Part shown: piece after piece, positions 3,935 through 43,929 of the stretch
Numbering within the stretch: the stretch's first letter is position 1
How the letters are laid out: the number at the start of each line of letters is the position of its first letter
Origin: Nymphaea colorata
Taxonomy: Eukaryota; Streptophyta; Magnoliopsida; Nymphaeales; Nymphaeaceae
DNA: 64,000 nt
Reading direction: 5' to 3'
Assembly (NCBI RefSeq): GCF_008831285.2
Contig: NC_045139.1
Location: forward strand, 11,132,704 to 11,196,703
Position numbers and translations under genes: made by a program
Notes under the pieces: generated by a model
The model's input: the letters and a program-made list of their open reading frames with translations, nothing else
The model's database searches: none
Told to the model about the DNA's origin: nothing

Positions 3935-6900
3935 TCACATGCCAACCGTGGCCTTGTACAGCTGCTTCAGGCATGCGGCGATCTCATCAGCTGAGGCTCC
4001 TTCAGAGGTGCGAATGAGGAGGGGGCTCTCTGGTGGCACAGTGTCCTCTCTGTGGTAGGAACCATTTGTCCTCAGGAGCTCCTCTGACCCATTTTCTACC
4101 ACGCCCTTGAGGAGCATGGTCTTGTGGGAGCCAGACAGAAGCTCCTCGTAGTCGGTGTCTCCACGCTCTCCAAGGAGCACATACATATTTGCAACATTTA
4201 GACCCCACCGAACAAAGAGGTACCTGCACATAGAAAGTGAGGGAGACGGAGAGAGGTCAAACTTAGTCTTGCTTCATCTTTTGATCTTTCTGTGATGTGG
4301 CTGCTCCTAAAAAAGAAAGCTTTATTATGGCTTTATCACGAATTGACTCATCTTCCACATTTTCTCTACGTCGAAATTTGACATAGGTCCATGTGTTTCT
4401 AAGGAAAAAGTATTGCATAAGAACCGGGCATGGCATTCCACCCTGCCAATAGCTGTTGAACATTGTTATGCTCGTTATGCTACACCTGCATGCATGTTAT
4501 AGCTTCATTAATTTACATAACTATACGTAATCAATGCTCCTCGTTTGTGGTATCCAACTCATGATTTTTTTTAGGCGTTTATTGTTGAAAGATATTGATG
4601 AGTTATTTTGCACGTATTTTAATGATTTAACAATGGATGCATGCACAAAAGTTGAGGTTTTGACTTCCAAGCCATACTAATACAAGATATGTCAGGATTA
4701 CATGTGGACACATGGGTTCAGCTCACAAGGCTCAAGCATTCAACAGGACACAAGTCATAGTCATATGTTTTCTTTTTCTGTATTTTAATGTAAAGAAATT
4801 ATTTGAGGAATTGTTACCAAAGCACCGAAGAACTAATAAAATTACTAAATAATGGGCATACAATTCATGTCTCAACCTGCATTTTCTCACGTCAACAGGG
4901 GCATGAATGAAGGATACAGCCACAATGGCCCTAATTCGCCTTCAGTAACATGGTACAGAATTTGTGTCTTAGCAGATTCCAATCTGCTTGAATATTAATC
5001 ATGAACAACACAAACAAGGATGGTAAAGTCGGTGCCTAAATAGTCACTCAAAGATGACACATAGTGTACGTGTCGTGGATGTGGAGGATAGGGCTGTAGA
5101 TGTTCGTACCTGAGTGCCTGTGATCTAGATGCAAGCAGAGGAATGACTTGTAACCGCGTAGAGTTCCTGCAATACATTAGATGGCACCGCAGTCCCCTCA
5201 TGCGAAGCTTCTGCCTCAGTTCATCTATATTCTTTGCCTGCATTAGAGGCACAATACAAATTCAGGCAGACACCACAAAAGGAAAAATGGCAAAATCTAT
5301 TAGTTTTAGAACCAGTTGAAAGAATTCCTCGTTCTTGCTTTTAGACCAAGTAGCCACTATTCTTTTTATTTACATAAAGGCATTTTGCTTCTCCTTTCCA
5401 GCAGGAGAATATACTATATTATGATTAATCCATATTCTTTTCATGCAATATGATATGATAAATTATTTACGAACTAATAGAAAAATACTGTTAGCGTAAA
5501 TGTGCCAGTTAGCCATACACCTTTTTAGGATCCTTTACTAAATATGAAATACAGTGAGCATTGCACGCTGTCTCATCTTCCTCAATAACACTTGAAGAAT
5601 TAGAAGACTTCCCATTCCTCATCTCTGAAGAATTCATCAATTTTGTGATAGTCTTTCTCAGTCCATCATATCCCCATCTGTAGTCAATGTGTGAAGCATA
5701 GTCACGGTCTGGGCAGAGCTTCCCATTTTCCATACATTGGTGTGTGCCTGGGTAATAGACCTCACTCCCACTGCTGCATATCAGAGCATCAAATTCTGTG
5801 GCTTGAATTTTTCCTGATGCCAACAACTGCAACGTCTCTGAGAGAGGCATTGCTGTTGACAGTGCAAATCCAGAAACTCTTGATGCCAATGTGTCTGACT
5901 TAACAGCCTTGAACGTTTCCTGGATCGCCTTCAGCATCTTCGTAATTGGCTTTCCTTCTTCATTATAACTGTCCAATGCTATCACAAAAAGCCTCTTCCT
6001 TCTTCTTAATGCTGGATACTTATTTAGTGAATTCTCATTCTGTTTCTTGCTCACATCTGTCTGTTGCACGTCAGTTGATGCTTTCTTTAATTTGTTCATA
6101 ATTCGCTTCACCTGGTCTTGTACCCCAGGATCTGCTTCTGCTGCCACCTTCTCAAGTTCCTCAGGATCATATTCAGCTGAACCATTGACAGATGATCTCT
6201 CACCATCAACTGAAAGCCTGAGGGACATGTCCTGCACATCCTTCAACGAATCACCCAATGAATCTTCTGCTATTGTATCATCCAGTGGTGTATCCAATTG
6301 CCAATGGGGGTGCCTCATCCTGCAGCTTGCCACCCTTGTAAGGTAAGTTCGGCAATGCTCTGGCCATGAAAACAAATGGATGTTCTTCCATCCATTCTTT
6401 CTGCATTCTGACCAGAGATTTTTATCTGCAACCAATTTCAGCAAGGCATCCGCAATAGCTTTATCATCGTGAGGATCCACCAGCAATCCATTGTTCAATG
6501 CCTAAACCATTTAAAAGCATGCAACAATAAGATTCAGGAACCTTTGCCACTTCCTAGATATATGCCAGATATCATACCCGGTGGATGTCAACTGGACCCC
6601 CATTCTTTGTCGCTACCATTGGCAAGCCATGTGCGGCTGCCTGCAACAGGCATCAGAAGTAAATATCCACATGGTAAAACAAACACACACAGACACAAAT
6701 ATAAAGAGAGATGATATTTAGCATCAGAATCAGAGCCAACCTCAATTAGAGTAAGACCAAATGGCTCCACCAGAGCTGGATTTATGAATACTCCCTGTAA
6801 TTTCAACAAGTTACAGAGGATTAACAACGATATGAGATAAATAACAATAGATAGACAAAGAAAATCACAAACCTTAGCCTTTGCTGCTAGCCTATAGATC

Positions 6901-9900
6901 TCTGGTACATCAGACTGTTTATGATGCTTTGGGTATGCAACCTGGCCATACAGATCATACTTATCTATCATCTTCAGAACTGTAGTGAGTACACTAGCGT
7001 TACCTCCAGTCATTTCATCGATGTCGTCCCTGTTTCCCATAATCAATGTCTGCATGCAACCATAAATTTAAATCGATGAGGATGTTAAACCTGCTGGGTA
7101 AATAACAGAAGTAAAGGTCAGATACTTACCAAATTTGCAAGTTCTCTTAAAGGACGACACTCACCAAAGGCTTTCAAGAGTGTAGTTATGTTCTTCTTCG
7201 GATCTGGCCTAGACAACGCCAATATCATTGGCTTATGTGGATTTGTAAGAAAACGCATCACCTGCAATATCCTAACAGTTTATAATGCATGATAGAAATT
7301 GATGTAAGGTTCACATCAAGCTTCTTCAATTAAAAAAGCACATAAACATAAACATAAACTGACTTGTGACTTCATGGTTCAACTCTCCGTAGTGATGGAT
7401 CACAAACCATATTGCCTGTCCACTCCCATTGACTTGCAATAACTAACTAGGAGATTTATCAAGCTTGGTTCATGCCCAATAAATGTATAGTATCATGTAC
7501 ATTTGCTACAGGACACTGTATGGACATAATTGAGTAAGATGAGGTTCAGAAACTACTGTTGTGCAAGAGAGAGATAGTGTGTGTGTATAATGTTGCATGT
7601 CCCAAACGGCCAAACCAAACGTCATATCATCTAAACAAGGGACAAAAATTCTAAGTGAAGTGCCACATAACATATAACTTGGTGATGCATGTCACCCAGC
7701 ATAGTGGTCTGGGAATTTGGACTACAACAGAAGAAGCCCCAGTTGAAACAACGCCCTATAATTTAAATTTTCAGTCTTTAGTTTGAAACATACATCAGTC
7801 CATATAAGTGGAACAGACTTAGGAGAAGCACCCTCTGTGATCAATGCTGCAAGTTCACCATCAGCTTCATTGGGATCCTGCTCTTGAACCACGTTGCTGA
7901 AGTCCATACCAGGAGGTATAACCTGTGTAAGTACCAGCAGTATCTTGAGTTCCAAAAACCAATAATAGCAGATAGTTTACTTTTCATGATTAGTTGTACA
8001 AAAAAGTTTCCCTATTCTGGAAGGGAAGACTGCAGTTACGACCTCTTAAGGGACAATAAAGAAATGAGCAGCACAATCTGGCAGGATGAGAATTAGCTTG
8101 ACATTAATAGTAACCCTTGCATTTTATGCAGTTAAGGAGCTAGAACGAACAAGTAACGGGAAAATGATCGAAAATATAAGGGAAAAAAATCTTAAATTTC
8201 AGAATTTTTTATATGCTTTGATCCACTTAATATGCAGAAATTGAAGCTCTTTCATTCTTAGAGGATGTAACAACTGAGTATGCTGACTGCTTTACAATTT
8301 ACAAACATTTTCCTAAACACAAATAATATTACAACTAGTTTGCCCCTTTCACAGTTCAAATTAGATCAAAATTAACAACATAGAAAGGACAAAGCAAAAA
8401 AATTGTTGCATCCCCTAAATGGCACTTTCTGAAGTACTTCGTACCCAATTTGGTAAAACATGATATAGTAAGTCGATGTTTTGAAATCATGATAAATGCC
8501 AACACATATGAACTATAGAAATAAAGAGATAGTGTTGAACATATTTGGCCTGCTGACTGCGAGTTCTCCCCTTTCTTTCTTTTTGTGTTTAGATGTGCTT
8601 AGGTATACACGCATGTGCTATTCTGTGCCTCTCTGTATGTGTGTGCTTCTTTGTCTATTTTTCCACACATACCGCCATTCTTGGCATGTAACGGCCGTGG
8701 CAGTTTACTCCTCTCCTACCGCGAGCTCTTAACACCTTCTCAAGTTTGACATCAAAACCATCATATAGGCCCCATTGTTCTTCAATTTCCTGCTTAGTAC
8801 TTGTAATGACAAGTTCTGCAGCATCAAGAGAGAGTTCTTCAGCCTCTATGCGCCGCATTATCTTGTAAGTTGCATTTATGTCCTCCTTTGATTGACGACC
8901 CTGCTTAAGAAGTTGTTCTAGCTTATTCCGACCAAGAGAATGGCCCGTAAGAACCATAGGAACATTCAAGGCACCAGAAAGAAGTGCAGCACTATCACCC
9001 GCGTCTGCATAGTGGCCATGAATGACATATGGCCATACCGGCTGCCCCTTGCCAATCTGCTCTGCCAACACTTTGGACATGTTAAGGATGTGAGCTAAAG
9101 CTCCATCAACAAACTCTTGGATATAAGGCCACAATAACTCTTTGCGAAGATACTTATCTCTAGGACCAAAGGGTATACGTATAATGTATGCACCACTACT
9201 CTCTCCTGCATCATTTCCATCTGAATCATATGATCCTGGAGCTAACATCTCTGTCGGCTCCCCATAACTCCAGTCAACATCTGGTGATGATACTTGACGG
9301 GTAAAGAGGTCCACCCTGTATACTCCAGGCATCATAGAGAGTGCCCTGGAAAGCTCTACCACATATTTCACCTGAACAATTTTCCATGTTGCATGTCAAT
9401 CATACACGGATTGCTTAGCATTGCATTCAGAAAGATACAACAGTACCTGACCGCCAGTATCAGAATCTCGACCCAGCTCCATGTTTTCTCCACGAACTAG
9501 ACCATGCAAACTATTTGAACAAAGACATTTACGTTATTTCATCGCGAAGAAATCAAGACTGCCACAGATAATAGAATATCTTTTCTTAGAAAAGAAAATA
9601 AATGCATTAAAAAATCAGACAGAATAAGAAAGAATGAAGCATCACAACGTTCCTAATTGAGCCTTAAAAACTTTCGCCATTTATAATCATTATACAAGAT
9701 CTAATAAAATATGCAGAACATATTGTAAGATGCATCTTGTGCCATTGATCCACAACTCATGAGATTACATGTTTCTCTAATCATGATGAGCCCATAGAGC
9801 TGGAGACCCTACATAGTTACACATTAAATTTGATTTCAAATAGTAACATTGTAATTTTTTAATGAATTGAATTTATGAAAATAGTTTTGGACTGCTCCAG

Positions 9901-12900
9901 ATAAGGCAGTTGACACGTGGTACACAAAAGGTCATATAAATGTCATAGAAAGCATTAAAATACCTGCAATTATCTCATTTGGTCTAGAAATGGTCTGTCA
10001 ACAACTAGGAAGATCTTTGAAAAATTTTCCAGATGACATGATGATCTGTATATAAAAGATTTTGATTTTTTGGCATGTCAATGTCATACTCTGTGAATGA
10101 TTCATAACATCTAAGAGATTCAGAGCCCCAAATTGGTTACTGATTCTGCATTTCTGTATTGCCAGGATATTTCTATATATTTGTCAGAGAACAATGCCCT
10201 CAAATAAGATGGAAAATTCAAGTATAGTTTTCTGCATTTCCTTCTAGCATGCGCTTATGATTTTAGTACATGATTTCTCATAAAAAGAAAGCTACAGTCC
10301 CCTATAATATTGATGACCATGTAGATCTGTATACTTGCACAGTATTATTAGAAACTGTATGCACTTATTTTAGTGAATTTGTTGCTTGAAGTTTACGTAT
10401 TTGTACCACTGTTTGTGTTCTACCAGAAAGGGTCTTAAGTCGTCAAACTTGCTGGGTCGACCCGCCGACCAGCAGGTCAGTCAGGTAATCCAGGTCATGA
10501 GTTTCCAAACAACGGTTGAAATTTCCAAGTATTTTACTGACTCCTACATTCTCAACACGAATGTATTTCATTTTGTTTAATACATTAATTCTACATGTTC
10601 TTTTTGTTTCATTAGTTGCAGTCATGCAGGGACAGCATGATTGTCCTAACCACGGTATGCAAGTCTGCACTCCAAAGTCCAACCTCTCAAGAACTAAGTA
10701 ACATCGACTCTTCAAAAAGGTTGTCAAACTCCAGTCATGTTCATGATTGTCCTGACCATGGCATGCAAGCTCTGTCCTGTCAATATCCAAGTAACATGCA
10801 CTCTTCAAAGAGGTTGCTGAACCCAAGTTGACACAACCAAGAAGCAGGTGCTGGTGTGGCTTGGGTATGGCAATAGACAAATTACTAGTAACATGATAGC
10901 CTGTTAACTGCTAATTGCTAGTTTTATTGTTTGTTTGTGGACAATATTATCGCCAGTTTTATTGTTTGTAGGCACTTTTATACACGCACACACCCATACC
11001 CACATCCTGCACCTGTGTGACATAGGTGAAGATTCAATAGTTCAACTATAGTCACGGTAGGTGGCGATCATTCTGTTACCAGGATATGCTTTGCCTATCC
11101 ATGTCAGCCCTCTGTTTGATCAATCTCTTGTTTGACAAGGAAAAAGTTAAGAAAAAAAAAAAAGATTACTCGGTCTCTGCTGACCTCTGTTGCCCTAGTT
11201 GCGCACTTAAACCCCTCCCTTTATCTCTCACATCTCTCTTTTTCAGGATTTGGCTGGACAGGAAAGAAGATGCCTCAGCCACCCAATGCTACTCCTAGTT
11301 GACCTCAAGCTTGTGCAATTAATTTTTAGTAACCAACAAGCTCTAAAAGTACTATGAGGGTTTCCTGATATTTTACATTCATAAGTTGAAATGCCTAAAA
11401 CCCAAAAAGAACAAAATCTCTACTACTTTTGAATGAAAATATGTTTTCCTTAGTAATATTTGATGTTTGAAAAATGAAATAGCTAATATTTGGTGCATCA
11501 TGTTGCTCATAAGGGAATTACTGGGCAAAAAACCAGTGAAATTTTCCATATTCTTCAATGTTGCTTAGACCAATTTACACCATTTCTTTAGTTAAACTAG
11601 TTTCTTCATTCTACTGCAAACTTGAAGCCGTCCTGGTTTAGATGTCCTGTTCCACCATTGGAGGTGTGCTATTTCTTTAATATGTATCATGAGCTGAAAA
11701 ACTGCAGGGCATCCACTTGCTGCACTAACAATGATCTAATTTACAAGATATAAGCACATCCGTCATCAAAAGTATTGAATTTCTTTAAGCTCATTAAATC
11801 TTGACACCAAATTCCAAGTGTCCTACCATCAGATGTACCTTCAATATGTGGATGGCCTTTCTCTTAAGGAAGCTAAGAAAAAACCTTTTATCAGTTTTCT
11901 TTTCACTTTTCTTAGAGCCTGTGTATTTCTGGTTATACCATGCCTGAAATGCATTAATGAAAAGGAATAGATGCAAAGATGGTGAAACAACAGAAGTATA
12001 TTTGCTCAAAAATTCTCTGCCCAAATGCAGAACATTTGGCCAATGTTAGAAACTATATTAGTCTTCACAAAATATGGTTTTCCAGAACCATCACTACTGC
12101 ACAGTTGTCAATCACACTAGCTATGTATAGATACAAGAACAGGAAACATGAGAAGCAAAAAGAACCTTACAAGTATTGCTACTTGGTACCCAAAGAAAGA
12201 ACAGAATAAGAGTAAAACAATAAATATGCCATGCATTGCTCTTACGCAAACAAATATATGTTTATTCATTTATTACCAAGCTACAGCATTTTAATAGGAA
12301 ACCTTAAGAAAGGGACAACAGTTCAAAGTCCATAGAGTTAATGAGGATACGCAGAGAACAATTACTCCAGTATGGCTCCACGACTCTATGCAGCCACCAA
12401 GGCTAAACCAATTATCCAAGAGAATAAGATATTCATGTTATTTCTCAAAAAATCAGGTGCCGTTTCTGCACTAGATTACTTACTTAAAATAGATAAAATA
12501 AGAACTAAAGAAGAAACTCTTGCAGAGATAAAACAAAAAAGCATGTCTTGACAAAGTAATAAGGAAAGACTAAAAAAGTTAATATATTCGTAGATAAAGA
12601 AACAACAATATACCTGATAAGCACAATGTAAAGTTTCTTTTCCTTGTTGTCATCAGACCAAACCTGAAGATCTGAAAAGTTCCTCTGAAATTTATGCCTT
12701 GGAGTCTCACTTAGCACGAATGTTTCCCCTGGATTATCACCCCTTTCCCCTTCAGATAAATCTTCTGACATATCCTCTGTTGCATCCCTCCTTCCTTGCT
12801 CTCGTTCTAGTCTGCGGCTTGCTAGCCTTTGAAAATCTTCCCATTCCAACTGTCCAAAGAAAGCATGAAGAATTGAGCATAATTTGACTGGGATAATATG

Positions 12901-27099: not shown

Positions 27100-27342
27100 A
27101 TTTGACGCGATTCAACGAATCACCGCCGCCAAGTGCTTCTCTAACGCTACCGTAGATTGTCGCAGACCCGAACCTGCGGGTGAGAACGACAAGCACATTG
27201 CACAGCCATACGCAATATCACTCGATCGATTTCTGCACTCCGGCTAAAACCCTGCGCGGGTTCTTCCCCACCGAAAAACCTCAGGGTTTCTAACGGGCGC
27301 AGAGCAAGCAGAGGCGAGAACCAGAGAGGGACAGCAGGGGAG

Positions 27343-30300
27343 ATGGAGGAGGAGCTGCTGAAGACGCTGGGGACTTCACGAACAGAGACAATTGGGACAA
27401 GTTCTTCACCATCAAGGGCAGCCAGGACCCCTTCGAGTGGTACTCCGAATGGCCAGAAGTCAGCGGCCTGCTCCTCCACGAGCTCCGCTCCCTCGCGCCC
27501 GCTTCTCCCGATGGATGCGGGACCGGAGATTGCAGCGACAGTGCCACTGCTCCTGATGCCACCGCCTGCCGGATCCTGGTTCCCGGGTGCGGGAACTCCC
27601 GTCTCTCGGAGGGCCTCTATGACGCCGGGTTCCGTGACATCACCAACATTGATTTCTCCAGGATCGTTATCTCCGACATGCTCCGCCTCCACATTCGATC
27701 GCGTCCCAGCATGCGCTGGCGCGTCATGGATATGACCGACCTGCAGGTTTTTCTTTTTCGCCGCTCTGCTAGCCTTTTTTGTTTTCTTGAACGCCTTCTG
27801 ATCGGGAATAGTGCTCTAATTGTATATTTACTGGTTCTCTGCAGAAGTGGACTTCAATTTCTGTTAGTTTCGATCAAAATTGATTTGTTCCGATTGATTC
27901 ATGACGACTTTAGTATTTACTGTTATTTTTCATTTGCTCCATCACTTTTGTGCGCTTCTCTTGTATAGAGTCGTCTTGGTGAATCCGAGTTTTGGTTACA
28001 GCAGGCAAACCCAAATCCTTAAGCCTATACGTAAGTGTTTTTGGCGAGGTAGAGTTCATGCAGAGAAGGGAAGGTCATATTGATGTTCTTATCGGGTGTG
28101 TAACTAGAGATGAAACGCGAGTAAAAGGAGCATGAAGAACGTGTAGGGGAACCTTTCCCTAAGGTGTCGCTAAACTTGTCTAAGCGGATAAATTTACTTG
28201 CATGATAGGAGTCGTTCGCAATTGAATTTCTTAGTACGGGTACAAGATGCAGATTTTTGAAACGTTGGAGTTGGTAAATATGCTAAATTCTGCTTTGTTT
28301 TTGAAGATAGTTTGTTGAAAGAGAACCATAGTAGTATTATTCGTCTACCTGCATAATCTCTCTCTTTGTACCATTTTCTCTATATATTCTCCTCTTCTGT
28401 TCTCTTATTCCATATGTTTACCACTTGCTTTATCCAAATTATGGTTGCTAGTTTGCAGATGGATCTTTCGATGCTGTCGTTGATAAAGGAGGGCTTGATG
28501 CTCTGATGGAACCCGAACATGGTCCAGAGCTCGGGAACCAATATCTCTCAGAGGTCTTTGGGACTTCAATTTGAGCCTTGGAATTTGAGTAATGAGTTTC
28601 ATGCTTTTCATGTATGGTTTTGTGCTTGTTAATCAATGTTATTTTGAAGCATTAGCTGGATACTCATGGGATGATTTTATGGTATCAGGTGAAGAGAGTA
28701 CTCACTCTGGGAGGGAAATTTATTTGCCTCACACTTGCTGAGTCTCATGTAGTAGGTATAGGCATACATGATTCTTTATGATCAATTCTATGCCATGTTA
28801 ACAATTGAGAGTGCAGAAGATATTGCTGGTCTTTCTAGAATTACCAATTCAAACCTCATTTTGCAGAGTTGCTTTTCTCCAAGTTCAGGTTTGGATGGAA
28901 AATTGATTTAAAACCAGTAACTCTGGGGGCCTCTAGCAATCATGGCTTTCAAACCTTTCTCTTGGTTGCCTTGAGAGAAAAATCAAGTACACTGGATTTA
29001 ATTGTACCATCTTTCAATAGTTCTATTCTTGAGCATAAAGGAAATCAGGCAAGTTATGATCTTCCTCATTCTTATTTAGTTTCATCCCATTGTTTCTTTC
29101 ATCCGTCCTCCTGAATAGAGATGGATCTTTTACTGACACATATCAAATGATGTTTGTTTATTCTTTCACAGATTCGTGGTCTATTACAAGCAGTAGATGC
29201 TGAGAACAAAATTAGGAGTGAAAGTTTGCAGGGTGGTGTTGATATTGTGTATTCCCTGGAAGATCTCAAGTTGGGGGCTGGAGGAGATCTAGAACAACTT
29301 ATTTTTGGTCGTAGGTTGCACCTCATATTGGGTGGAAAAAAACTGTCTCGTTTCAGTTACAAGGCTGTAGTTTTGGACTCCAAAGAGGCACCTGATCCAC
29401 TAATGTATCAATGTGCAATCTTTTTAGTTCCAAAGGTGAGGCATGTTTTTGGGGCAAAAGCAAACTTTGTTTCCAATTATCTTGTTTATATTGTTACACA
29501 TGATAGTTCATTATCTTGTGGTTCACTTCTCATATTTCTCAATCCAATCTGGGGATGTTTGTTGGTCTGTACAATCTAGTGAAACATGGTAAAGCTGTTC
29601 TATGTTCTCCGAGTGAAGCCTGAAGAATTATTTTCATTATACATGCAAGTACATGCAATGTGTTCCTTTTCGTATGCAGCATTTTTGAGGTTGTCTATGT
29701 GTTTCTTCTCTTTGTTGTTGTACTGCATGTAACAATTTTATGTGGCTTCTTTGTCTGAGACGTATGACTGATACCTGACATGATTGCCCTCAGATCAGGG
29801 CTCATGAATGGCTTTTTTCTTCTGAAGAAGGACAATGGGTAGTAGTTGAAAATGCAAAAGCAGCTCGCTTAATCATGGTGGGTTTGAGCTTTCATTCAGC
29901 ATTGACATTTAAATAGTTGTTCTGTTGTTATCATCATGGCTGGTGATACTAACTACGTTCTGTTGGTGTAACCTCTTGTCAGGTTTTCTTGGATTCTGAA
30001 CATAGCCTTGTGGGCATGGATGATATCCAGGTGCTCCCTTTATCTTGTATGATGCTGTAATATTTTGTTTTAATGCTTTCAACACCCTGTCCACCTTAGT
30101 AGAAAATCATCCTACAAGTGAAGTACACAGTTTTATTTATTTATTATTTAAATTCTGATCACTTTGTTTTGGCAATTATTCAGAAGGATCTCTCTCCACT
30201 GGTCAAGACTCTGGCACCTGGGAAACTTGACAATGGCACTCAAATACCGTATGCTTCTATTTTTTCATTTTTATTTACATATGCATTATTGAGGTGGCCA

Positions 30301-33300
30301 TTTTTCCTTTTTCTTTTTTGTCTTTTATTGTTCTGTCTGTACGTGTTTATTCCTTCTGTTGGATTTATTTTTTGAGACTGAGATCCGTTTTCTGTCTTGT
30401 ATGTGTGGTTTTTAACATGAAAGACAAGTATCAAGTGCCCATAAAAACATGAACTACTGTCAGACTTGTTAGGACATATAAAATCCATCACAAGGACCAT
30501 CGGTGGGTGTCGTGATGGAAGTAACTTACCTAGCAATTGAGATCATTGTTCAGTTTTTGTATATTTTGTACCATGTTCTTATTTTTTATACTGATTAGAT
30601 GTTTTGGAAATTGTGAACTTGTTCATTGTTGAACTTACTTGTTCATTGTATACTTCAGTTTTATGATGGCCAATGATGGTGTCAAGCAACGCAACATTGT
30701 TCATGAGGTTTGCTCCTGTATAGCTCTGAGTTGCTAAAATTGATATTTGTTTCTCTTTGTTTTGCATTTTTTTTTCACTTGTTGTTCTTTTTAATCAAAC
30801 TTTTATATGTTTTCTGCTGTGCAATTTGGTGTTTTAAGAAATGCTTGTGTAACAACATCCACCCTGGTATGTTTGAATTCTGGTTTTGGGTGCTGCCACA
30901 TATCAACGTACTGTATATTGCATGGATGCATAATATGTTTTATGGATATCATGGTTCTTATTTGTGTGTGTGTACTTTCTTTCTAGAGAGTCAGGGACAT
31001 CTTAAAATACTTGTTTTTGTTACCATGTTAAAGCTATTTTCTGAATTTTGTTTCTTTAATTATGTAACACACATTTCCTTCTATTTGGCTTATGAGATGT
31101 CTTGTTACATGGTTTTCAATGGTTGGATTTCAAACTTGTATTATATCAAATGTTGGAGATACATGAATGATATATCTCCTTCAATAGCTGCTCACCACCT
31201 TCAGGATGTTGCTATGCAAATTAGGGGTGGGTATCGGGCCGGGCCGGGTCGGCCCAATTCGGCCCGTCGGGCCGGCCAGCCCGGCCCGATAATATTGTCG
31301 GGCCACCAAAAATTAGGCCCGGCCCGGCCCGCCTGCGAGGAGGGAGAGAGGAGAGGGGAAGGGAGAGGAGGGAGCTGAGAGGGAGAGGGAAGGGAGAGTA
31401 GAGACTGAGAGGGAGATCGGAAGGGAGAGGAGGAGGGGGAGAGAAGCAGGCAGAGAGGGAGATGGGAAGGGAGAGGGATACGGGAAGGGAGAGGAGGAGC
31501 GAAAGGGACCGAAGGTTTGCAGCACTACGCCCATGAGGAAGACGACCTCCGAATCTGTCCCCACATTCGTTTCGACAGGGAGGAGCCGGTAGGGAAAAAG
31601 GGAATGGCAGGAGGAACTCCTTTCAGCGTCGTGTCCTCATTTTCCCCAAATCGCATTTGCTACCACAACTTAGTCTCGAAGTGGTTGGGTACCAGTACTT
31701 GAACTACAGACGGGTGAGGAGTTCTTCAATAAGTTAATAACCATCCTGAGATTGGTTGATCCTTATCGAGGCATGAAAAAAAAGATCATGTGCTACCAAA
31801 TTTGTGTTTTTTCCCTGCCGGCTCCTCCCTGTCGGCAGGGAAGGAGAGGGATAGGGAGATGGGAAGGGAGAGGGGGAGCGGAGAGGGAGGGGAGCAGAAT
31901 CGAAAGGGAGCAGAGAAGGAGAGGGATAGGGAGATGGGAAGGGAGAGGAGGAGCAGAGAGGGAGGGGAGCGGAATCGAAAAGTGGAACACGCCGTTGGAG
32001 TTGCAGATTCCTCCTGTTGCTCCTCCTTGCTGCCTGTTCACCCTGGAAAAGGGGGAAGCCGAGACAGACGCACTTGATTTGGGAAGTCGTCTTCCCCACG
32101 ATGGCGATGCTGAAGAACGGGATAACAGAGGAGGCGGCGACGGAATGGAACCTAGCGTCAGAGCTTAGAGCTTGGGAGGAAGACAACTCTCTCTCTCTCT
32201 GGTTCGTTCCCCTTTGAAAGACGACATAAGCTTCACCTTCGGACGAACCAGGCGAGGAAAGAACTCTCACGCGAGACGGAAAATTTGGATGAGGAAGAAG
32301 ACCCGAGGCGGGAGTCGGGCCAGGCCGGGCCGCCGCTGGGCCGCTCTATCGGGCCCGGCCCAGGACCACTATCGGGCCGGCCCGGCGGCGGCCCGGCCCG
32401 ACGCCCAGGCCTAATGCAAATTTGGACTGGACAATTGAGTTCTAGTTCACTCCTCCTTGTGGGAGAGTTCTGATGGACAATTTTTTCCTCTATTCTTGTT
32501 TTGGGCCACCACATATCTCGTATTGTTATTTTTCTATTTTTGTCTTTAATTGCATTTTCTGTAATTACATATGGTAGAAAGTTGCAAAATTCATTTTAAT
32601 TAAAATTTTGGTTCCAATTACTCACGGCCTGTGCTTGGCATTATTGGGAAATTGATTTTCCTATGAGATTCTGCAAAGTATAACTGGATGAACCTTCTCC
32701 AATTGCCAAAATTTTTACATGGTGCTTGAGTTCCTTTTGGAAGGGAAATGACACTGTAGGAAGTCTGGCAATAGGGAAATCCATCTGCAGCCCCTGCATA
32801 TTGCTGGATGTAATTATGGGTTCTTACAGTCTCCCTCTTCATTTTGTCCCCTCTTTTTTTGACTTGTGACATTGGAAAATGTGGAGATAGTAATGCGGCT
32901 TTTCCCATTCTTAACATTGCTGAAGAAGATGTCTCTATCTTCTTGAAAGACATCACAAATAATGATGTATGCTTTGTCTTGGATCTAATGTCTGCATTTA
33001 TTCTATTTTTGTTTTCCATGCCTCATGGCTGGAAGGCAGTTTTGAATGCAAAGTGTGGCTTTTGATTCTTGAGTGTGGGTTCAACAATGGTAATTGTGAC
33101 TTTGTTTTGCTTTTTTTGTAGTTTGTTTGAATGCCTCATATTGTGAAGTTACCTTTTCTTGCATGACTTTGTTGTGGTCTTTTAGGTTACCCATGGATGG
33201 GTTTCTCACCATGAATTTTCGTCTCTTGACTTTTCTATGGTAGCAATTTGCTGGTCATTCATATTCATCTTGTCTTATTTTCCTTGTCAGCAGCTACGTT

Positions 33301-33962
33301 GCAGACGCTGAATACTAGTTTTGACTATATATATATTCAGGGTGTCTTTCCTCACAGCCAATACCAGCTGAGTGAAATGGTTGGCTGGTCTGGGCCATCC
33401 ATGTGGACGGCCCATTCTTTAAGGTTAAAAAAAAAAAATCATACCCGATGTGGGTGGGAGAGCCAGGTGCCTCCCCGGCCCCTACAATGGGGGAGGCTGT
33501 TGCCTCCCCCTTCTATTTACACTTTTTTTTTTAAAGTTTGGGCAGGGGAGGCCGTCACCTCCCCCGGGCGTAGACCTCTGTCCCGCCGTCGCCCAAGGGA
33601 GGCGACGGCCTCCCCTGACCAAAATCTTTCTTTTATGTATAAAAAAAAGAAAAAAGCATAGAGGAGGCCATTGCCTCCCCTATCGCTGCTGCCGGCCTCC
33701 CATCGCCAGCGGACTGGGGAGGCCGGTGGCAGCGATGGCCTCCTCTTCTCCTTCTCAAAGAGGGAGGGAAGGCAGAGAAGGCGTCGCCTTCCCCACCCGG
33801 CAGCTCGATCGAGTGTCTTATTTTTTTTTGGAAATGGAAGTGGGCCATCCATGTCTCTTTTTTTATTTTTTATTTTTATTGAAATGGAAGTGGGCCGTCC
33901 ACATGGACGGCCCAAACCAGCTGAGCGTTTTGCTCGGCTGGAACCTGCGTAAGGAAAGACAG

Positions 33963-34000
<38 letters not shown>

Positions 34001-37000
34001 TTTTATAACTAGGCTAAACTCTTCGACATCTTTTAGGTGCAAAAGGAAGAAAAATAGGTTTTGTTTGTGTTACACATGAAATATCTGATGGTGGCACAAT
34101 GGATACTGTATGTGAAGACACTTAAAAGTAGTGAACACATGACATCAGGCATTGATTTTTTTTTTTGTCATATTATATTGTTAAAATTTAGAAGACCTGC
34201 GATTGTCAAGGAGTGACAGTCGTCAAAAATGTCGGAACTGACACTTTGAAGTTTGAACCTTAAGGGTGTCATGGTAACATAGGTCATTGCTACTTCGTTT
34301 TGACTCCAAACAAATTACGTTGGGAGCCTAACACAGTTGGTTGTATCCCTGTATATTCAGTCAATATTCCTTTGACTTCTCCTGTTCTCATAGAGTTAAC
34401 ACTCTTATGCTTTTGTATTACTTCACTGCTTACATGCTTTGGATTGACCATGGATGAACATGATTTCAAGCTTTGATCGTAACCATTTCTTTCCATAGTT
34501 TTAGTTTTAGTTTTTGTTTTCTTGACTTTTCTAAGTATTTCAGGTTACATCCACCATGACTGGTGAAATAATTGTTGAAGATGTTGTTTATGAAGAAACT
34601 GAAGCTCATCATGGTGATCATACTGTATCAAAAGATTCAATATTTCGGCGACTTATCTTTAAAAGAAGCTTAGGTTTGGTGCAATCAGAAGTTTTGCTCA
34701 TAAGCAAAGATATTGCTGAGACAACGCTTAATCCAGGGAGGAGGAGTAAGAGTTCCGGTCGAATAAAAAAGAAGTCTTCACAAAAAGGTCAGTTAAATGC
34801 TTTCATCAATTGATGATGATCTGTCTCACCATCATTTTTCATACACCCATAGAAATTTGCACATGCACTTATGTTAGTGATTGGAACTGTATGACAATGC
34901 TTTAAGCTGTCAGAGGGATGTCAGATGGTGGATGTCAGGAAAGACTTTAGAAACATATATATGTAAAGTTTTACCTACTGGTGTTCTTGTTTGTTGGTTC
35001 ATGTTGTTTCTTCTGCACTATGGTGAATATTCACAATCACCTTATCGCTATTAGATCTATGGTTCAAAAAGAGTATATGGAAGGAAAAAAGTCGTGGAGA
35101 AAAAGAGGGAGAAGGTGAATAAAAAGAAGAAAAATGAGAAAAATGTAAAAACAAGAATAAAATTTAAAATGGTAAAAATAGAAGAAGGGAAAAAAATTCA
35201 CACTTTTTTTTTTTTTACTTGGCTGGTCTGACCCAGTAAGAAAGGTGGGTGCCTAAATTCTGGGAGCGTGGCTAGATGCACTTTTGACTACTAAGGTGGG
35301 CGTTCTCATTTTAGTACGTGTAATTATTACATGTTCAGACAACCATCCTTATGCTTGTGGCTTTCTTAGGTCTTTGTTTGTTGTCTATGGTAAATTTGAA
35401 ACTGTTGTGATTACATGTCCATTGCTTCAAGTCCTTTGAGTTATGACCTCTAGGAGGCCTTCTCTTGTTGGAGATCACAAATGTGAACCCCTTCACTTTT
35501 TTTTTTCCTTCTATATTTTATAGATAAAAAGGGATTTGTTCTACAATATCTCTTCACTTGGAAGATGCTAGCTCAAATTGGAAAAAGAAAATGAAAAAAA
35601 AAGAAAGAAAATCAATTCACTGGTTCTTTTATTTCATTTGCTTTTACAGGGTCAAGAGCCTCTTTGGAAGTTGATCATAGCTACTTGGCAAATTCCTATC
35701 ACAGGGCGATAATCAGTGGGTTTCTGTTGATTGCATCTAATATGGAACACTTGGTGGCAACTGGAGAAAAGGTAAATTTTCCAAGCTCCTTGTTGTGTAA
35801 AAGTACGATGTGAATAAAACAATTCTATCAGAAGAAATATCATCAGCGTTGTGATGTGGAAGGTACTTAAATATTTCTACAGAATAAAGCACATTATTGT
35901 GCTTGGTTGTTGTTTTTGAGCAAAGACAGCCTTATATTGATGGTTCTAACCAATGCATGAAACTTCCGTAGTTGCTTTTACAATTCCTGCTAGAATGCAC
36001 CTTTTGTAAGATTGAAGCTTATCGGTTGCAGATTAGAACCACTATCATTGGCCTTGGAGGCGGTCTTCTTCCAATGTTTCTTCGCAGATACATACCAGTG
36101 TTAGACATTGAGGTGCTTTGGAATTATATGGCCATCTAAACTTCTTTTGCTCATAAAGTTGACCATTCTATGTTTTCTTAGCAGTCTGATGTTCATGCAG
36201 GTCATTGAGCTGGATCCTGTCATCTTTAATGTAGCTAGAGATTATTTTGGTTTTACAGAGGACAACCAGATGAAGGTGATTTACATGCTTAAACCAATAT
36301 AATATGACTTTGCCTTAGTTTGTATTCTTGGTATTATCTCAACTTCTTGGTGCTAGTTCTTCCGTGACCACATTGATAATGTTGAGGAAATGTGCTGCTT
36401 TGGGATTTAAAGTTTTATGTATTTTGGAATTTAATATTAGGTAGCTTTTTGAATCTTTAAAATTTTGTTGGAGTCTTTATGTAAAGGGTTAAACATAACC
36501 CTAATCCTTATTTAGTCTAATTGAAAAGGAGCACCCGACAGATTGATGACTGCTACCTGTTCTCTCTTCCTTCCTCACGTTCTCCTCTTCTCTCTCTTCT
36601 CCACCTCTCTACGCAACATGGTATCAGAGCTTGGGACCTAGGAGTGTGCCATCTAGGGTTTCATGCGGCTTCCCTCCTTCTCTCTTTTCTCGTCTCTTCA
36701 TTCAAGAAAAGGTTGGACGTCTAAAGTTTCTGCTGCCTACAAAAGATATGGTGGGATTGTTTGATGAAAAGGGGCTGATCATGTTCTACATGTAGAGACG
36801 TGATTTGCACTCTATGTTGCTGTCGAAGTCTTGATGCTGCTGAAGAACCTAATCGGATGAAGTTGACAAGTTGCTGTCTTTGTTCATATCTGAATGTCGC
36901 AGTGTATCAGATCTAACTCAGGTGATGTCGTTGACAAACAGTTGATGTTGATCAGATCTGAATGTTGCAGAATATATCATATTTGATTCAGTTGATGTCG

Positions 37001-40000
37001 TTAAAAAAAAAAATTCAGACTAGAGAACGTCTGATCTGCTTGGCCGTGTGGTGCAGAGTTGATTCTCAGTCAAAATGGAGCAGGTTTGTCTTGAAATCTG
37101 ATTGCAGTAAGTCTGTGCATGTTGTTTATATTCAATCTGCCGTAGGTTGGTGTTGAACTCTGGCTGCAAAATTCTGTGCTTGCTAGTATATATCTTGTCT
37201 GCCGTGGGCTTTTATAGTTATCTATTTTCGTGGTTCTAGCATGGCTGCCAACAGATCTATACAACTTGATAGAACTGAATCTGGAAATCAGCACATAGAG
37301 GTTGGTGTTGAGTACAAAGCTTTTTCAAATCCATTCTCGTTTGGATCTACTATCAAAATTGATAGAGCCAACTATGATGTATGGGCTAGAACCTTCATGT
37401 TGTCAGTAGTTGGACATGAAAAGAAATATATATTGGAAGAAGATGAACCAATTGAAAAGACTGGTAAATACGCACAGTGGGAGGAAGAAAACAACATTAT
37501 TAGTGCTTGGCTTATGAATAGCACTCAGCCCCACATTGCAGCAGGGCTTTGTTATTATAATACAGCCAAAGATATGTAGAATTCTCTTCGGCAGACGTAC
37601 TCTCAAGATAAAAACATTAGCAAAATTTTATAGGTTCAGCAAGAATTGTTACAAATGCAGCAAGGTGACATGAATTTGACAGAATATTTTACAAAGTTGA
37701 AGTTCACTTATGAAAAGATGAACTCCTTAAAACCGCCCTGTAAGTATTGTCTCAAATCTCACATGGAGCAAATGATTGTTGTTAAATTTCTTGCGGGACT
37801 ATCTTCTGATTATTCTGCACCAAGGCTCAAATGCTTACAGGTTCATATTTTCTTGATGAGGCCTTCAATAGACTAAACAGATTGGCTGTTACTCTTCCTC
37901 CATCCTCGAATTACTCACAGCCTTCTGCCCTTGCCTCATTTGGAGGAGGAAGAAGTGGACTATACTCTTCCCGTGGTAGAGGAAGAGGCCGAGGTCTTGG
38001 AAGACGTGGAAGACTTCAATGCACATATTGTGGTCGTCTTGGTCACTTAGAGGATAGGTGCTAGAACAAAGTGGGTAAACCTAACTCATCCACTTCTTCG
38101 ACATCTTCATCTAGTTCTACTCCAAACACACAGTCTATCAGTATAGCTCTTAAGGCGAATCCCACTGTTGCTTCAGTAGATGCTACATCTCTTAATTTAA
38201 GTCCGGCTGAAATTGATTTAATTATGGAGCATAGATCAAATGCTACTCCTTCTACCTCATCGGCATCTACAACTATCACAAATTCAACATACTCTGCAGG
38301 TAAAACTACTTCTAATGGTTGTTGGATAATTGATTCGGGAGCATCTAAACACTTTTGTGGAGATACTAGTATTTCAAACCTACAGAAATTTGATTCGCCT
38401 CAGTATGTTCGTTTGGCGGATGGAAGACTATCGCCAGTAGAAGGACATGGAGAGGTTTATCTTTCTCCATCTTTGCATGTTCATGATGTGATATATACTT
38501 TTGAATTTCCAAAGAATTTGTTATCTGTAAGCAAACTAACTAAAGAGATGAATTGCAAAGTTATTTTTGACTCGGGTACTTGTGTATTTGAGGATCTATC
38601 AACTGGGAGGAAGATTGGTGGAGGCCATGAGATAGATGGAATATACATCTTGGATACATCCGATAAGGAGGTGTCATTCTTAGTTGATTCTTCTTCAAGT
38701 GCCTTCCAGTGGCATCTCAGATTGGGTCATCCATCATTCCCTAAACTTCGGCTGCTATGTCCTAAGATTTCTTCCACAACGTCTATCGAGTGCGAAGCTT
38801 GTCAATTGGGTAAGCATAGTCGTACTTCCTTTTCATCGAGTCAAAGTCAGTCTAGCCAAAGTCTATTTGATTTAGTTCATATTGATGTTTGGGGGCCTAG
38901 TTGGGTTCCAAGTCGGTTGTTGTCTCGTTATTATCTGTCCATTGTTGATGATTTCTCTTGTGTCACTTGGGTGTTTTTGATGAAAGACAGAACTGAAGCT
39001 CCTTGTATCTTGAAATCTTTCATATTGGAAATAAAAACTCAATTTAATTATTGTGTCAAGGTTGTTCGCACTGACAATGCTCTCGAGTTCAAATCTACTC
39101 ATTTACTTGAATTCTATAAATCCCATGGTATTGTGCCATATTTTACCTGCCCTCACACATCTCAACAAAATGGTGTAGTTGAAAGAAAACATCGCCATTT
39201 GTTGGATGTAGCCCGCACAATCATGATTCATTCTCCTATGCCTTCTAAATTTTGGGGAGATGCAATTTTAACCGTATGTTACCTAATAAATAGAATGTCA
39301 TCATCTTCCATAGACAACAAGATTTCAATTCAAATTCTCTACCTAAATAGAGCTTTATTTTCTTTACCCCCACGTATATTTGCGTGCACATGCTTTGTAC
39401 ATAAACTTGGTCCGAATCGAGATAAACTAGCTGCGCAAGCAAGTAAATGTGTGTTTGTGGGATACTCAAAAAATCAAAAGGGGTATCGATGCCTAGAGCC
39501 TATATCTAATCGAGAGTTTGTCAGTGTCGATATAACATTTCTCGAGTCGTCTCCATTCTTTCTGCAAATCCTTCATATCCAGTCTTCATCTTTCAAGAAG
39601 AATCAGTCCTGACCTTTCAAGACAGTCTTAACCTTTCCATTTTTGGTCAGGTGAGTACTAATGGCATACAATTGCAATTGGTCCTGTCCTTCCATCAAAA
39701 GAAGTCTGAGATGTCCTCTTCTGTTCCACTTTCAATTCCTTCTATTCCACTTGAGTCCCTTCCTTTTTTATCATCACCCACCTGTTCCACTCCCTCCATT
39801 CCACGGTTTAAAGATCCTCCTCTCACATATTCAAGAAGGAATCCATCATCTAATGACCCTGCACCATCTTGCTCTCGGAAAGTAAGTAGTTCTAAATTAC
39901 ATGACATGCCTGAGTGTTCCCTTGATGCTTCTGTTCCTGATGAACTACCTATTGCATTGCGTAAAGGGATTAGATTAGACAATGCACAATTCATCCTCTT

Positions 40001-43000
40001 TCTAAGTTTGTTAGTACAGCTCATGTGGGAGATCATATGTGCAAATTTATTGATGCCTTGTCAGCTACATCCATTCCTATTTCACATGAACAAGCTTTGT
40101 TGGACTCTAAGTGGTACCAGACTATGAAGGAGAAGATAGATTCTCTAATATCTCGTCACACTTGGGATCTCATTGAGCATTCTTATGGGGGCAGATATTG
40201 TTGGTTCGAAATGGGTCTTCACTATCAAGTACAACTCAGATGGTACAGTTGAGCGCTACAAGGTACGCTTGATAGCAAAATGGTACACACAGATTTTGAG
40301 ATGATGGATGACCCAATCTGACATGTTTGGGCACTATACGACTCATTATATCTGTTGCAGTTCATTATGGTTGGAACATGTACCAACTCGATGTTAAAAA
40401 TGTCTTTCTGTACGGGGATTTAACTGAAGTGGTTTATATGCAACAACCACTCGATTTTGAGAAGCAGGGGAGTGTACCAAGGTATGTTTGTTAAAGAAGG
40501 CTATATATGGTTTGAAACAGAGTCCCAAAGCATGGTTTCAGAAGTTGTGTGACGTTGTGTCTAAGTTTGAGTTTCAGAGATCGCCTTTAGATCATTCATT
40601 GTTCATAAAACAGACTTTAAGAGGTATAGTTGTTATGGTGATAGATGTGGATGATATTATTTTAACTGGTGACAATGAACAAAAAATACAAGACACAAAG
40701 AAGTATTTACAACAACATTTTGTTACTAAAGATCTTGGCTCTCTACGTTACTTCTTGGGGATAGAAGTGACAAGAAGTAAAGAAGGTCTAGTCCTTTCTC
40801 AAAGAAAATATGTTCTTGATTTGCTACACGAAACAGGTATGTCTGGAACTAAACCAGCATCTATTCCTATAAATTCTTGTACTCACTTATATGATGACAA
40901 ATCTGAACCTGTTGATATCAAATCGTATCGGTCTCTCATTAGAAAGCTACTACATGTAACAATTACTAGACCTGATATATCCTTTGATGTGGAAAAACTA
41001 AGCCAGTTTTTGGATAAACCAAAAAAAGCCCATTGGGATGCAGCTATGTTATTATTGGATAAACCAAAAAAAGCCCATTGGGATGCAGCTATGTTATTAT
41101 TGAAATTTCTAAAAGGGTCTATTTACTATTATTTAGAAGAAGCTCTTCGCTTCAGATAGAAGCTTATTCTGATGCAAATTATGCAGACTAAATTTATGAC
41201 AGAAAGTCCACTACGGGATTTTGTATCTTTGTTGGTGGCAACTTAGTCTCTTGGAGAAGTAAAAAGCAGGTTGTTGTTGCTCGATCTAGTGCAGAGTCAG
41301 AATATCGAGCCACGGCCCAAACAGCCACTGAAATCACATGGGTGAGAGCCATGCTAGAAGCTCTTGGAATTTAGATAGAATTGCCTATAAAAATGCAATG
41401 TGATAATAAAGCGGCTACTTATATAGCAAATAATCCGGTCTTTCACGAACAGACCAAACATATTGAAGTTGATTGTCATTACATTAGAGACTTGGTCTAA
41501 GCAAGGATTATTTCTACTGAGTATGTTGCTTCAGAAGACCAACCTGTAGATATATTTACCAAAGCTTTTTCGATATCCAATTTCATGAAGTGTTGTAGCA
41601 AGCTGAGCATGACAGACATCTATGCTCCAGCTTGAGGGGGAGTGTTGAGGAAACGTGCTGCTTTGGTATTTAAAGTTTTATTTATTTTAGAATTTAATAT
41701 TAGATAACTTTTTGAATTTTTAAAATTTTGTTAGACTCTTTATGTAAAGGGTTAAACATAACCCTAATCTTTATTTAGTCTAATTGAAAAGGAGCAGCTG
41801 ACAGATTGATGACTGCTACCTATTATCTCCTCCTTCCTCACGTTCTCCTCTTCTCCCTCTTTTCCACCTCTTTACGCAACAGATAAATTTATTGTGATTC
41901 ATATACTTTGAAGCATGCCGTGATTAAAATATGAAAATATTTGGATATTCTTGAATGAAAGCAAAACTGAACAATTTACATTGCATGAACATGTAATTAG
42001 AGAAGGCTGTTAAGATGGTTACATTCCTTTTTTTTTGGATTATAAACATGTCTACTAAACTGACACTGCTAAATATGCTCTGTTATCTAATTTACTGAGA
42101 CATACATGAGTAGGTGAGATCAAATTATTTCATATGGACATTGATAAGTATCTTTTGTTATGTGGGTCTAACTCTTTGATTTGCAAATACAGCAGATGCC
42201 TTTTATTATGTGAGTTGTCTGGAACTGCTTGGTTCTGACTCAGGTTTCAGGCTTACAGTTCAAAAGCATTGGGGTGTTTCTCTCTTTTAGGGGCCGTTTG
42301 ATGGCTGGAAACCATGGAAACGGAAAAAAATTTCCAGAAATATATTTCTGGAATTGAGAAATAGGAAAAAAAATTTCATATTTCCAAAACAAGCTTGTGT
42401 TTGTTAAGTAAGAAATATTTTTCCGGAAAGAAATTTTGTCGTTTGGTAGAAATGGAAGAAGGGAAGGGAAGGGAAGGAGGAGGAGGAGGAAGAAGGAAGA
42501 AGAAGGGAAGGGAAGGGAAGGGAAGGGAAGGGAAGGGAAGGAGGGAGGAGGAAGAAGGAGGAAGAAGGGAAGAGAAGGGGGAGGATGAAGAAGGGAAGGG
42601 AAGAGAAGGGGGGAGGATGAAGGGAAGGGAAGGGAAGGGAAAGGAAGGAGGGAGGATTTTGGGGATGAGGCGTCAGGCAGTGCCATCGGCGGCGGCGGGG
42701 GACGTGGGGAGGTGCCCTCGCGTGCCCTCCTCCTCTTCTTTCTCCTCCATCCTTCCCTTCCTCCTCCTCCTTCTTCCTCCTCCCTCCTTCCCTCCCTTCC
42801 TCCTCCTCCTTCCTCCTCCCTCCTTCCTTCCCTTCCTCCTCCAACGGTCAAAAACATATTTCTTGAAAATTTTTTCCACCCTTCTGGCTGGAAAAATTTT
42901 TCCAGAAATATTTTGCCGTTTCCACTTTTAACGGTAAAAAAAAAATTTCTAAGTTTGATGAGAAGGAAAAATTTTAAAATTTTGAAATTTTTTTCCACTG

Positions 43001-43929
43001 GTACAGTAAATTTCCAGGGCATCAAACGGCCCCTTAGTGAATTTAGGCTAATGTCTGTCACTTTTAGTATAAACATTGTTCAGCCACTTTGTCTAAGTTA
43101 TTAAACATCTTTTGGTTCTTTAGGTGCAAATTGGTGACGGTGTCCAGTTTGTCAGTGAAATAGCACATGCTTGTAGGCCTGAACTTGTTGATGGTGAGCC
43201 TAGATCACAGACTAGTACTGGAAGAATGAAAATTGTCTCCACCAAGGATGGCAAAGGTGATGCTGCCAACCGGAACAAAAGCAAGATAGACATATTGATC
43301 ATTGACGCAGATTCTGCTGATTTAAGGTTAGCCTATTGGTTATAGTTTTAAGAAATGTTTTGTAACAACAAATTGTAAAGTTCTTGCACTAGTTGCTGGA
43401 CTAGAAGGGCTTCACTTTCCTTAGGTGTCTTCTAGTTGCGTCTCCACTGAAAGGAAAATGTCTTTGTATATTTATTTGTGTAAGTTGTTTCTATGAGCAG
43501 CACAGGATTGACCTGTCCTCCTGCAAATTTTGTGGAGGAATCTTTTCTTGCAACTGTGAAAGAATCACTTAGTGATGTTGGACTTTTTATCATTAACACG
43601 GTCTCACGATCCCCAAGCGTCCGTGAGAAAATTGTTCAACGAATACAAGAGGTATGAAGTTATGAACCAGCAAAACTATGGTTATGTCTTTTCATTACCT
43701 TGCCCAGTATAAGGTGATCATGGTTCCTTTTCCACAGGTTTTTGCTCATATATTCTGTCTCAAGATTGAGGAAGACGTTAATGAGGTTCTGTTTGCACTT
43801 GGTGCTGATCAATGTGTCAAAGATGGTTTTCCGGATTCAACTATACAATTTCAGAATCTCTTTACCTTGGGTCAACCAAAGATATCAGCTTTCATAGAGA
43901 CTGCAAAGATGATCAAGCGCTTAAACTAG
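27343..43929 (+). CDS. METTL13: METTL13-like double methyltransferase (16 exons; exon 1 frameshifted)
   Basis: Homologue of METTL13/eEF1A-KNMT, an S-adenosylmethionine-dependent enzyme that in animals methylates the N-terminus and a lysine of eEF1A. Exons: 27343-27746, 28452-28553, 28689-28755, 28867-29048, 29172-29435, 29794-29877, 29983-30030, 30184-30248, 30659-30707, 34544-34787, 35650-35771, 36032-36112, 36201-36275, 43124-43326, 43501-43651, 43738-43929. They total about 777 codons, the plant family length. The N-terminal methyltransferase domain shows [19 protein letters not shown] near residue 78; the C-terminal, spermidine-synthase-like domain shows [11 protein letters not shown] near 548 and VIELDP at 572. 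The start [10 protein letters not shown] is in a different frame from the conserved [13 protein letters not shown] that follows: the G-run at 27369-27372 is one base short, and the conserved frame has no ATG after the stop at 27291. Intron 4 has a GC donor. Introns 9 and 13 are swollen by transposons. Confidence 0.9.
31222..32413. mobile_element. Non-autonomous hAT-type element with 8-bp target duplication
   Basis: The element begins TAGGGGTGGGTATCGGGCCG and its inverted right end reads TAGGCCTGGGCGTCGGGCCG, 16 of 20 matching. Both sides are flanked by a perfect direct repeat ATGCAAAT (31214-31221 and 32414-32421). Ends starting TAG with an 8-bp duplication are the hAT signature. The interior has no transposase; it is rich in GGGAGAGGGAAG-type purine runs, has a duplicated block (about 31842-31910 and 31916-31975), and carries an inverted repeat (CGACAGGGAGGAGCCGG near 31573, its inverse near 31816-31836). 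Some interior sequence between 31510 and 32250 could be captured host DNA. Confidence 0.88.
33343..33961. mobile_element. Mutator-like non-autonomous element with ~75-bp inverted ends
   Basis: The left 75 bases and the inverse of the right 75 bases can be aligned along most of their length. Shared words include GTCTTTCCT, CAGCTG/CAGCCGAG and GGACGGCCCA. Long imperfect inverted ends suggest a Mutator-like element. The interior has no transposase; it has GC-rich GGGAGGC and GCCTCCCC words arranged in both orientations. I could not find a clean 9-bp target duplication, because both flanks run into TA repeats. Confidence 0.55.
33965..33998. repeat. (TA)n microsatellite
   Basis: About 34 bases of TA next to the right end of the Mutator-like element. 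Confidence 0.9.
36380..36618 (+). repeat. 5' LTR of the Copia element
   Basis: It begins TGTTGAGGAAATG and ends ACGCAACA, with TG...CA termini. It aligns without gaps to the 3' LTR. Confidence 0.96.
36619..36630 (+). other. Primer binding site (initiator Met tRNA)
   Basis: TGGTATCAGAGC directly follows the 5' LTR. This is the standard Copia primer site complementary to the 3' end of initiator methionine tRNA. Confidence 0.93.
37241..41635 (+). pseudogene. Decayed Copia gag-pol reading frame
   Basis: The gag part begins with an ATG at 37241. It is broken by stops at 37577-37579 and near 37631, a frame change near 37830 and a stop at 38062-38064, just after a CX2CX4HX4C zinc knuckle (about 38022-38062). 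The next frame carries the protease motif DSGA (about 38332), the integrase residues D (HIDVWGP, about 38878), D (VRTDN, about 39064) and E (VVERKH, about 39178), and ends at 39612. The reverse transcriptase segment (40488-41159) has DVDD where YVDD is expected and a 45-bp tandem duplication near its end. The RNase H region (41160-41480) has several in-frame stops. No intact polyprotein is encoded. Confidence 0.92.
41010..41099 (+). repeat. 45-bp exact tandem duplication within the Copia frame
   Basis: The block starting TTGGATAAACC at 41010 recurs at 41055. Both copies stay in frame and encode [15 protein letters not shown] twice. The identity of the copies suggests the duplication is younger than the LTR divergence. 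Confidence 0.85.
41630..41642 (+). other. Polypurine tract of the Copia element
   Basis: CTTGAGGGGGAG lies immediately before the 3' LTR and is the expected primer for plus-strand synthesis. Confidence 0.85.
41643..41881 (+). repeat. 3' LTR of the Copia element
   Basis: 239 bp, beginning TGTTGAGGAAACG and ending ACGCAACA, ungapped against the 5' LTR with about 18 mismatches counted by eye. Confidence 0.96.
42290..43033. mobile_element. Tourist/PIF-Harbinger-like non-autonomous element
   Basis: The left end GGGGCCGTTTGATGGC and the inverse of the right end GGGGCCGTTTGATGCC agree over the first 14 bases, and TTA flanks both sides (42287-42289 and 43034-43036). A TTA duplication is the PIF/Harbinger signature. 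Subterminal AAAATTTC-type words are also arranged in inverse. The core has a 215-base purine half (GGGAAGGGAAGG runs, 42450-42660) and a 115-base pyrimidine half (42725-42842) able to pair with it. There is no transposase. Confidence 0.85.

Follow-up and report, generated by a model that had tools for sequence, protein, structure and literature searches.

The window analysed here, a 64,000-nucleotide (64-kb) stretch of the Nymphaea colorata genome, holds a METTL13-like methyltransferase gene on the forward strand and, at 3935-12849 on the reverse strand, a gene that we take to encode sucrose-phosphate synthase. In the latter, 11 exons could be joined in frame, giving 983 codons up to the stop. 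A Pfam GT-B_Sucrose_synth domain lies in its ORF at 8655-9371, and the ORF at 5509-6498 gave no Pfam match. The METTL13-like gene opens with an ATG and the first 10 coding residues at 27343..27371 (bases read directly; composition), which do not share the frame of the downstream coding sequence. The remainder comprises 16 exons that run from 27372 to a TAG ending at 43929, a total of 767 codons with no stop. The body of exon 1 (27372..27746) contains the start of an MT13-N-like domain, including the sequence VPGCGNS, as judged by frame, PDB and Pfam matches and composition. Splice signals and frame then define exons 2-5 (28452-28553, 28689-28755, 28867-29048 and 29172-29435), exons 6-9 (29794-29877, 29983-30030, 30184-30248 and 30659-30707) and exons 10-13 (34544-34787, 35650-35771, 36032-36112 and 36201-36275), all in frame. 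Exons 14-16 (43124-43326, 43501-43651 and 43738-43929) carry the MT13-C motifs DADS and NEVLF and end with the TAG.

The gene has 15 introns, 14 of the GT-AG type and one of the GC-AG type. The GC-AG intron, a known minor splice type, follows exon 4 and begins at 29049 (+). Because exon ends were assigned manually, on the strength of splice signals and reading frame and not by gene-finder or RNA evidence, the splice sites offer no independent test of intactness. A processed pseudogene is unlikely because the gene keeps its 15 introns. An old pseudogene is unlikely as well, for the frame break near the start is the sole disabling change found and the 767 codons contain no other stop or frameshift.

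The product shares with human METTL13 (eEF1A-KNMT, FEAT) the order of its two unlike seven-beta-strand domains. Only two distinct PDB sequences were matched at E up to 0.001. One is MT13-C of human METTL13 (5WCJ), with two aligned segments (E 7.9e-32); the other is 2PXX, aligned over residues 66-204, VPGCGNS included (E 1.4e-24). Residues 1-64 had no significant match in the PDB sequence search, and the sole database alignment over that stretch is a non-significant one of residues 6-39 to 2PXX (0.6 bits). The N-terminal seven-beta-strand methyltransferase domain, with motif I, is present, since Methyltransf_11, 25 and 31 all exceed their Pfam cut-offs over residues 65-176. The C-terminal spermidine-synthase-like domain is present as well (Spermine_synth, 27.5 bits, cut-off 22.9). 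The residues named for the cofactor, the substrate and Post II in MT13-C are Glu524, Asp551, Asp575, Val576, Asp577, Ser578 and Asn647 (PMC6109062). Identical residues are found at the equivalents of six of these seven, and Val576 is replaced by Ala. The numbering was anchored on the DVDS motif, after which the remaining residues agree.

METTL13 dimethylates Lys55 of eEF1A and trimethylates the eEF1A N-terminus (PMC10238732), and a clear METTL13 relative is reported for A. thaliana (PMC8624817). By homology, the Nymphaea product is predicted to be a dual eEF1A methyltransferase acting on Lys55 and the N-terminus. It differs from the human enzyme in being a plant protein with Ala at Val576 and with a substrate that is only predicted, and its start codon and body are, as assembled, in different frames. 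The structure 2PXX is eEF1A-KMT4, a paralogue of MT13-N (PMC8624817). The first domain of the Nymphaea protein resembles it over residues 66-204, including VPGCGNS. However, the 2PXX chain has 215 residues and matches the first domain only, whereas the METTL13-like gene has both.

The break itself can be read directly from the bases. The ATG at 27343 lies in a strong context, with G at -3 and at +4, and the 10 residues that follow from it are what we take to be the expected N-terminus of the plant METTL13 family. The body opens with GAC at 27372, whose first base is also the last base of a run of four Gs at 27369..27372. Here, at codons 9-10 of the protein, the frame changes, as both direct reading and composition indicate. 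We assume that the 12 residues at the start of the body are conserved, as residues 1-64 presumably are among METTL13 proteins. Upstream, the body frame is closed by a TAA stop at 27291, and its first ATG after that stop is at 27678. The frame of the ATG at 27343 stays open for 130 codons, its stop ending at 27735, and a Pfam search with its product at E up to 0.001 found nothing. The first-pass annotation had placed the ATG and the body in different frames, counted four Gs in the run and reported the stop at 27291 with no ATG before 27372; each of these points is borne out by the bases. Its statement that the remaining exons join in frame over about 640 codons also agrees with our model, in which exons 2-16 supply 642 of the 767 codons. 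We infer that the G run is the site of a one-base loss, either in the plant or in the assembly. Scans for the exon 1 pattern returned 112 matches in prokaryote contigs and three in viral contigs, both unlikely sources for a plant gene, and none of the matches was a confirmed relative.

Base composition locates the change of frame from the nucleotides themselves. In the first nine codons, G or C occupies the third position nine times out of nine in the ATG frame and twice in nine in the body frame. In exon 1 after 27372, the body frame has G or C at 98 of 125 third positions. With all of exon 1 as the training set, a positional base model gave 27346-27371 scores of +0.44 (ATG frame), -6.01 (body) and -1.01 (third). 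The difference between the ATG and body frames falls at the 47th percentile of 116 exon-1 windows. Because this training took in the stretch adjoining the G run, the model was retrained on 27564-27746 only, 61 codons in the 3' half of exon 1 that match known domains. The retrained model gave +2.45 (ATG frame), -12.32 (body) and -0.92 (third) for 27346-27371, and -30.79, +11.46 and -25.22, respectively, for 27372-27449. Among the 105 possible switch points in 27346-27450, the best eight fall at 27364-27374, and a switch at 27372 ranks third, 0.4 bits under the best. Readings with no switch score -1.18 and -28.78, against 13.98 with a switch. Both models are simple base-by-position models, and the number of training codons is small. 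The frame switch at the start of the gene is more than chance. Its position in the composition means that the coding frame changes at or adjoining the G run, a conclusion that needs no recall of the protein family.

An LTR retrotransposon in intron 13 (36380..41881, +), which carries gag-pol domains and is presumably of the copia type, offers a clock for the history of the frame. It has 239-bp LTRs (36380-36618 and 41643-41881) and a 5-bp target duplication, GATAA. The LTR pair differs at 18 of 239 positions (13 transitions and 5 transversions), a divergence of 8% (K2P 0.080, or 0.040 per lineage). If mutation is equal in LTRs and exons and indels arise at 0.1 of the rate of substitutions, about 13 disabling changes are expected since the insertion in an unconstrained coding sequence of equal length, and the probability of none is about 2e-6. 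LTR mutation is often faster than exon mutation; with exons mutating half as fast as LTRs, the expectation is still about 6.5. Only the frame break was found; on these rough figures, selection held the frame through most of the interval after the insertion. The LTR comparison and the kept catalytic residues strengthen the earlier proposal of selection on the gene up to recent times. It follows that the lesion, if real, is young. Neutral divergence since the loss would then be at most about 0.6-1.3%, depending on the indel-to-substitution ratio (0.2-0.05), if no part of the protein was under selection afterwards; the bound would be looser had a partial product remained under selection.

The two options proposed at first pass, a homopolymer error in the assembly and a true loss-of-function allele, still lead, and we consider a one-base homopolymer error of sequencing or polishing to be the probable cause of the frame break. 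The gene would then be an ordinary and apparently functional METTL13-like gene in which the assembly has shifted the frame by one base at the G run. The plant itself would carry an unbroken gene at the locus, and the product may well retain its enzymatic function. No lesion but the break was found in the 767 codons and across the 15 introns, and the break lies at a homopolymer. The six identical MT13-C residues, the composition switch at 27364-27374 and the shortfall from the roughly 13 disabling changes expected also favour an error. A lone homopolymer lesion in a conserved gene is the pattern expected of an assembly error, while a young real null needs luck. Homopolymer errors typically affect runs longer than four or five bases, which counts against this reading. 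Also against an error, the 11 sucrose-phosphate synthase exons (2,952 nt) and the METTL13-like gene (2,304 nt) contain no other break. Of the homopolymers of at least four bases in the two coding sequences, 34 lie in the METTL13-like gene and 27 in sucrose-phosphate synthase, 61 in all, and two five-G runs in the METTL13-like coding sequence are unbroken. The assembly is therefore not grossly poor. Such errors do occur in long-read plant assemblies: a polished nanopore assembly of rice was left with 211,517 indels and 1.06 errors of all kinds per kb, which were clustered, and a one-base deletion produced a false frameshift (PMC7736813). The clustering of nanopore errors and the lower number of such errors in HiFi assemblies (PMC7736813) count against an error here. 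The Nymphaea break resembles the rice case in being a one-base break in a gene that is otherwise intact. Unlike the rice case (PMC7736813), an error at the METTL13-like gene is only probable. If it is an error, it matters for annotation only, as gene predictors would miss or truncate the methyltransferase.

A true and recent one-base deletion that inactivated the gene, in the plant or on the haplotype, is the less likely of these two options, with perhaps a quarter of the weight. It is how the assembled sequence directly reads, and it sits well with the lack of any other frame error in the two coding sequences tested. The ATG would then yield an unrelated peptide of 130 residues, and nonsense-mediated decay would probably act on the transcript. 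The absence of a second disabling change in 767 codons and 15 introns speaks against a real null; given the bound on neutral divergence, a real deletion must have been caught very young. If the lesion is no error, the gene has probably lost its function recently through an ordinary mutation; one-base null alleles as such are commonplace. A plant that naturally lacks METTL13 function would be useful for studying the role of eEF1A methylation in plants. Doubtful, and less likely again, is the stronger claim that the one-base deletion has only just removed METTL13 from this lineage or haplotype and that the plants live without methylation of eEF1A at Lys55 and at its N-terminus. Such a natural knockout would show whether the eEF1A marks are dispensable in plants. 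In a literature search on METTL13 pseudogenes in plants, none of the papers listed deals with a plant METTL13 loss in its title or abstract opening.

It is very improbable that the gene works as assembled, whether translation enters the body frame from an upstream exon, begins at a non-AUG codon, reinitiates at 27678 or slips by -1 on the G run. The upstream in-frame exon and the non-AUG start had been named earlier as alternatives that would remove the need for a frameshift, and scans of near-cognate codons and AG sites leave both weak. A search for CTG, GTG, TTG, ACG, ATT, ATC, ATA, AAG and AGG found that the body frame, from its stop to 27372, holds only one AAG and three AGG as near-cognates, and the ACG at 27378 is in poor context, with T at -3. 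The 17 AG sites in 27281-27371 have upstream pyrimidine fractions of 0.06-0.56, against 0.50-0.81 for the 15 real acceptors of the gene. The sites before 27303 (0.44) and 27305 (0.50) come near the weakest real acceptors (0.50) and so lend an upstream exon some support. However, 16 of the 17 are at or below 0.50 and the site at 0.56 precedes the in-frame stop, so that none of the AG sites after the stop in 27281-27371 is more pyrimidine-rich upstream than the weakest real acceptors. Composition also argues against both an upstream exon and a non-AUG start, though not against slippage, because the coding frame before the run is that of the ATG. Reinitiation at 27678 would be hindered by the strong context of the ATG at 27343, whose frame overlaps 27678, and a start there would lose the GCGNS motif. 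For slippage, one tRNA could re-pair on GGG after moving back one base. Against programmed -1 frameshifting, there is no slippery heptamer of the form X XXY YYZ (27366-27372 reads G CTG GGG). The fold of 27376-27475, in a test restricted to structures other than pseudoknots, is weaker than that of shuffled sequences (-20.4 kcal/mol against a shuffle mean of -26.5, z +1.73). The non-AUG start, the upstream exon and programmed frameshifting are thus all poorly supported. The ranking of error, real allele and non-standard route is our judgement from one assembled sequence.

The window gave no Rfam match at the gathering thresholds, and several further features were observed in it. In intron 9 of the METTL13-like gene, a GC-rich insertion at 31223-32413 is flanked by a 9-bp duplication, ATGCAAATT, at 31214 and 32414 and has short inverted ends; from the size of the duplication we take it to be Mutator-like. 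The same intron contains, at 33364-33941, inverted arms of 51 nt that are 82% complementary and 476 nt apart, perhaps another transposon. Intron 13 carries, in addition to the retrotransposon, an element at 42290-43033 (positions counted by hand) with inverted ends GGGGCCGTTTGATG and CATCAAACGGCCCC and TTA flanks, on which grounds it is presumably Harbinger-like. Near the end of the window, the ORF at 63147-63758 (+) scores 21.3 bits for an AvrRpt-cleavage domain (cut-off 20.3) and may belong, as an exon, to a plant immunity gene of the RIN4 type.
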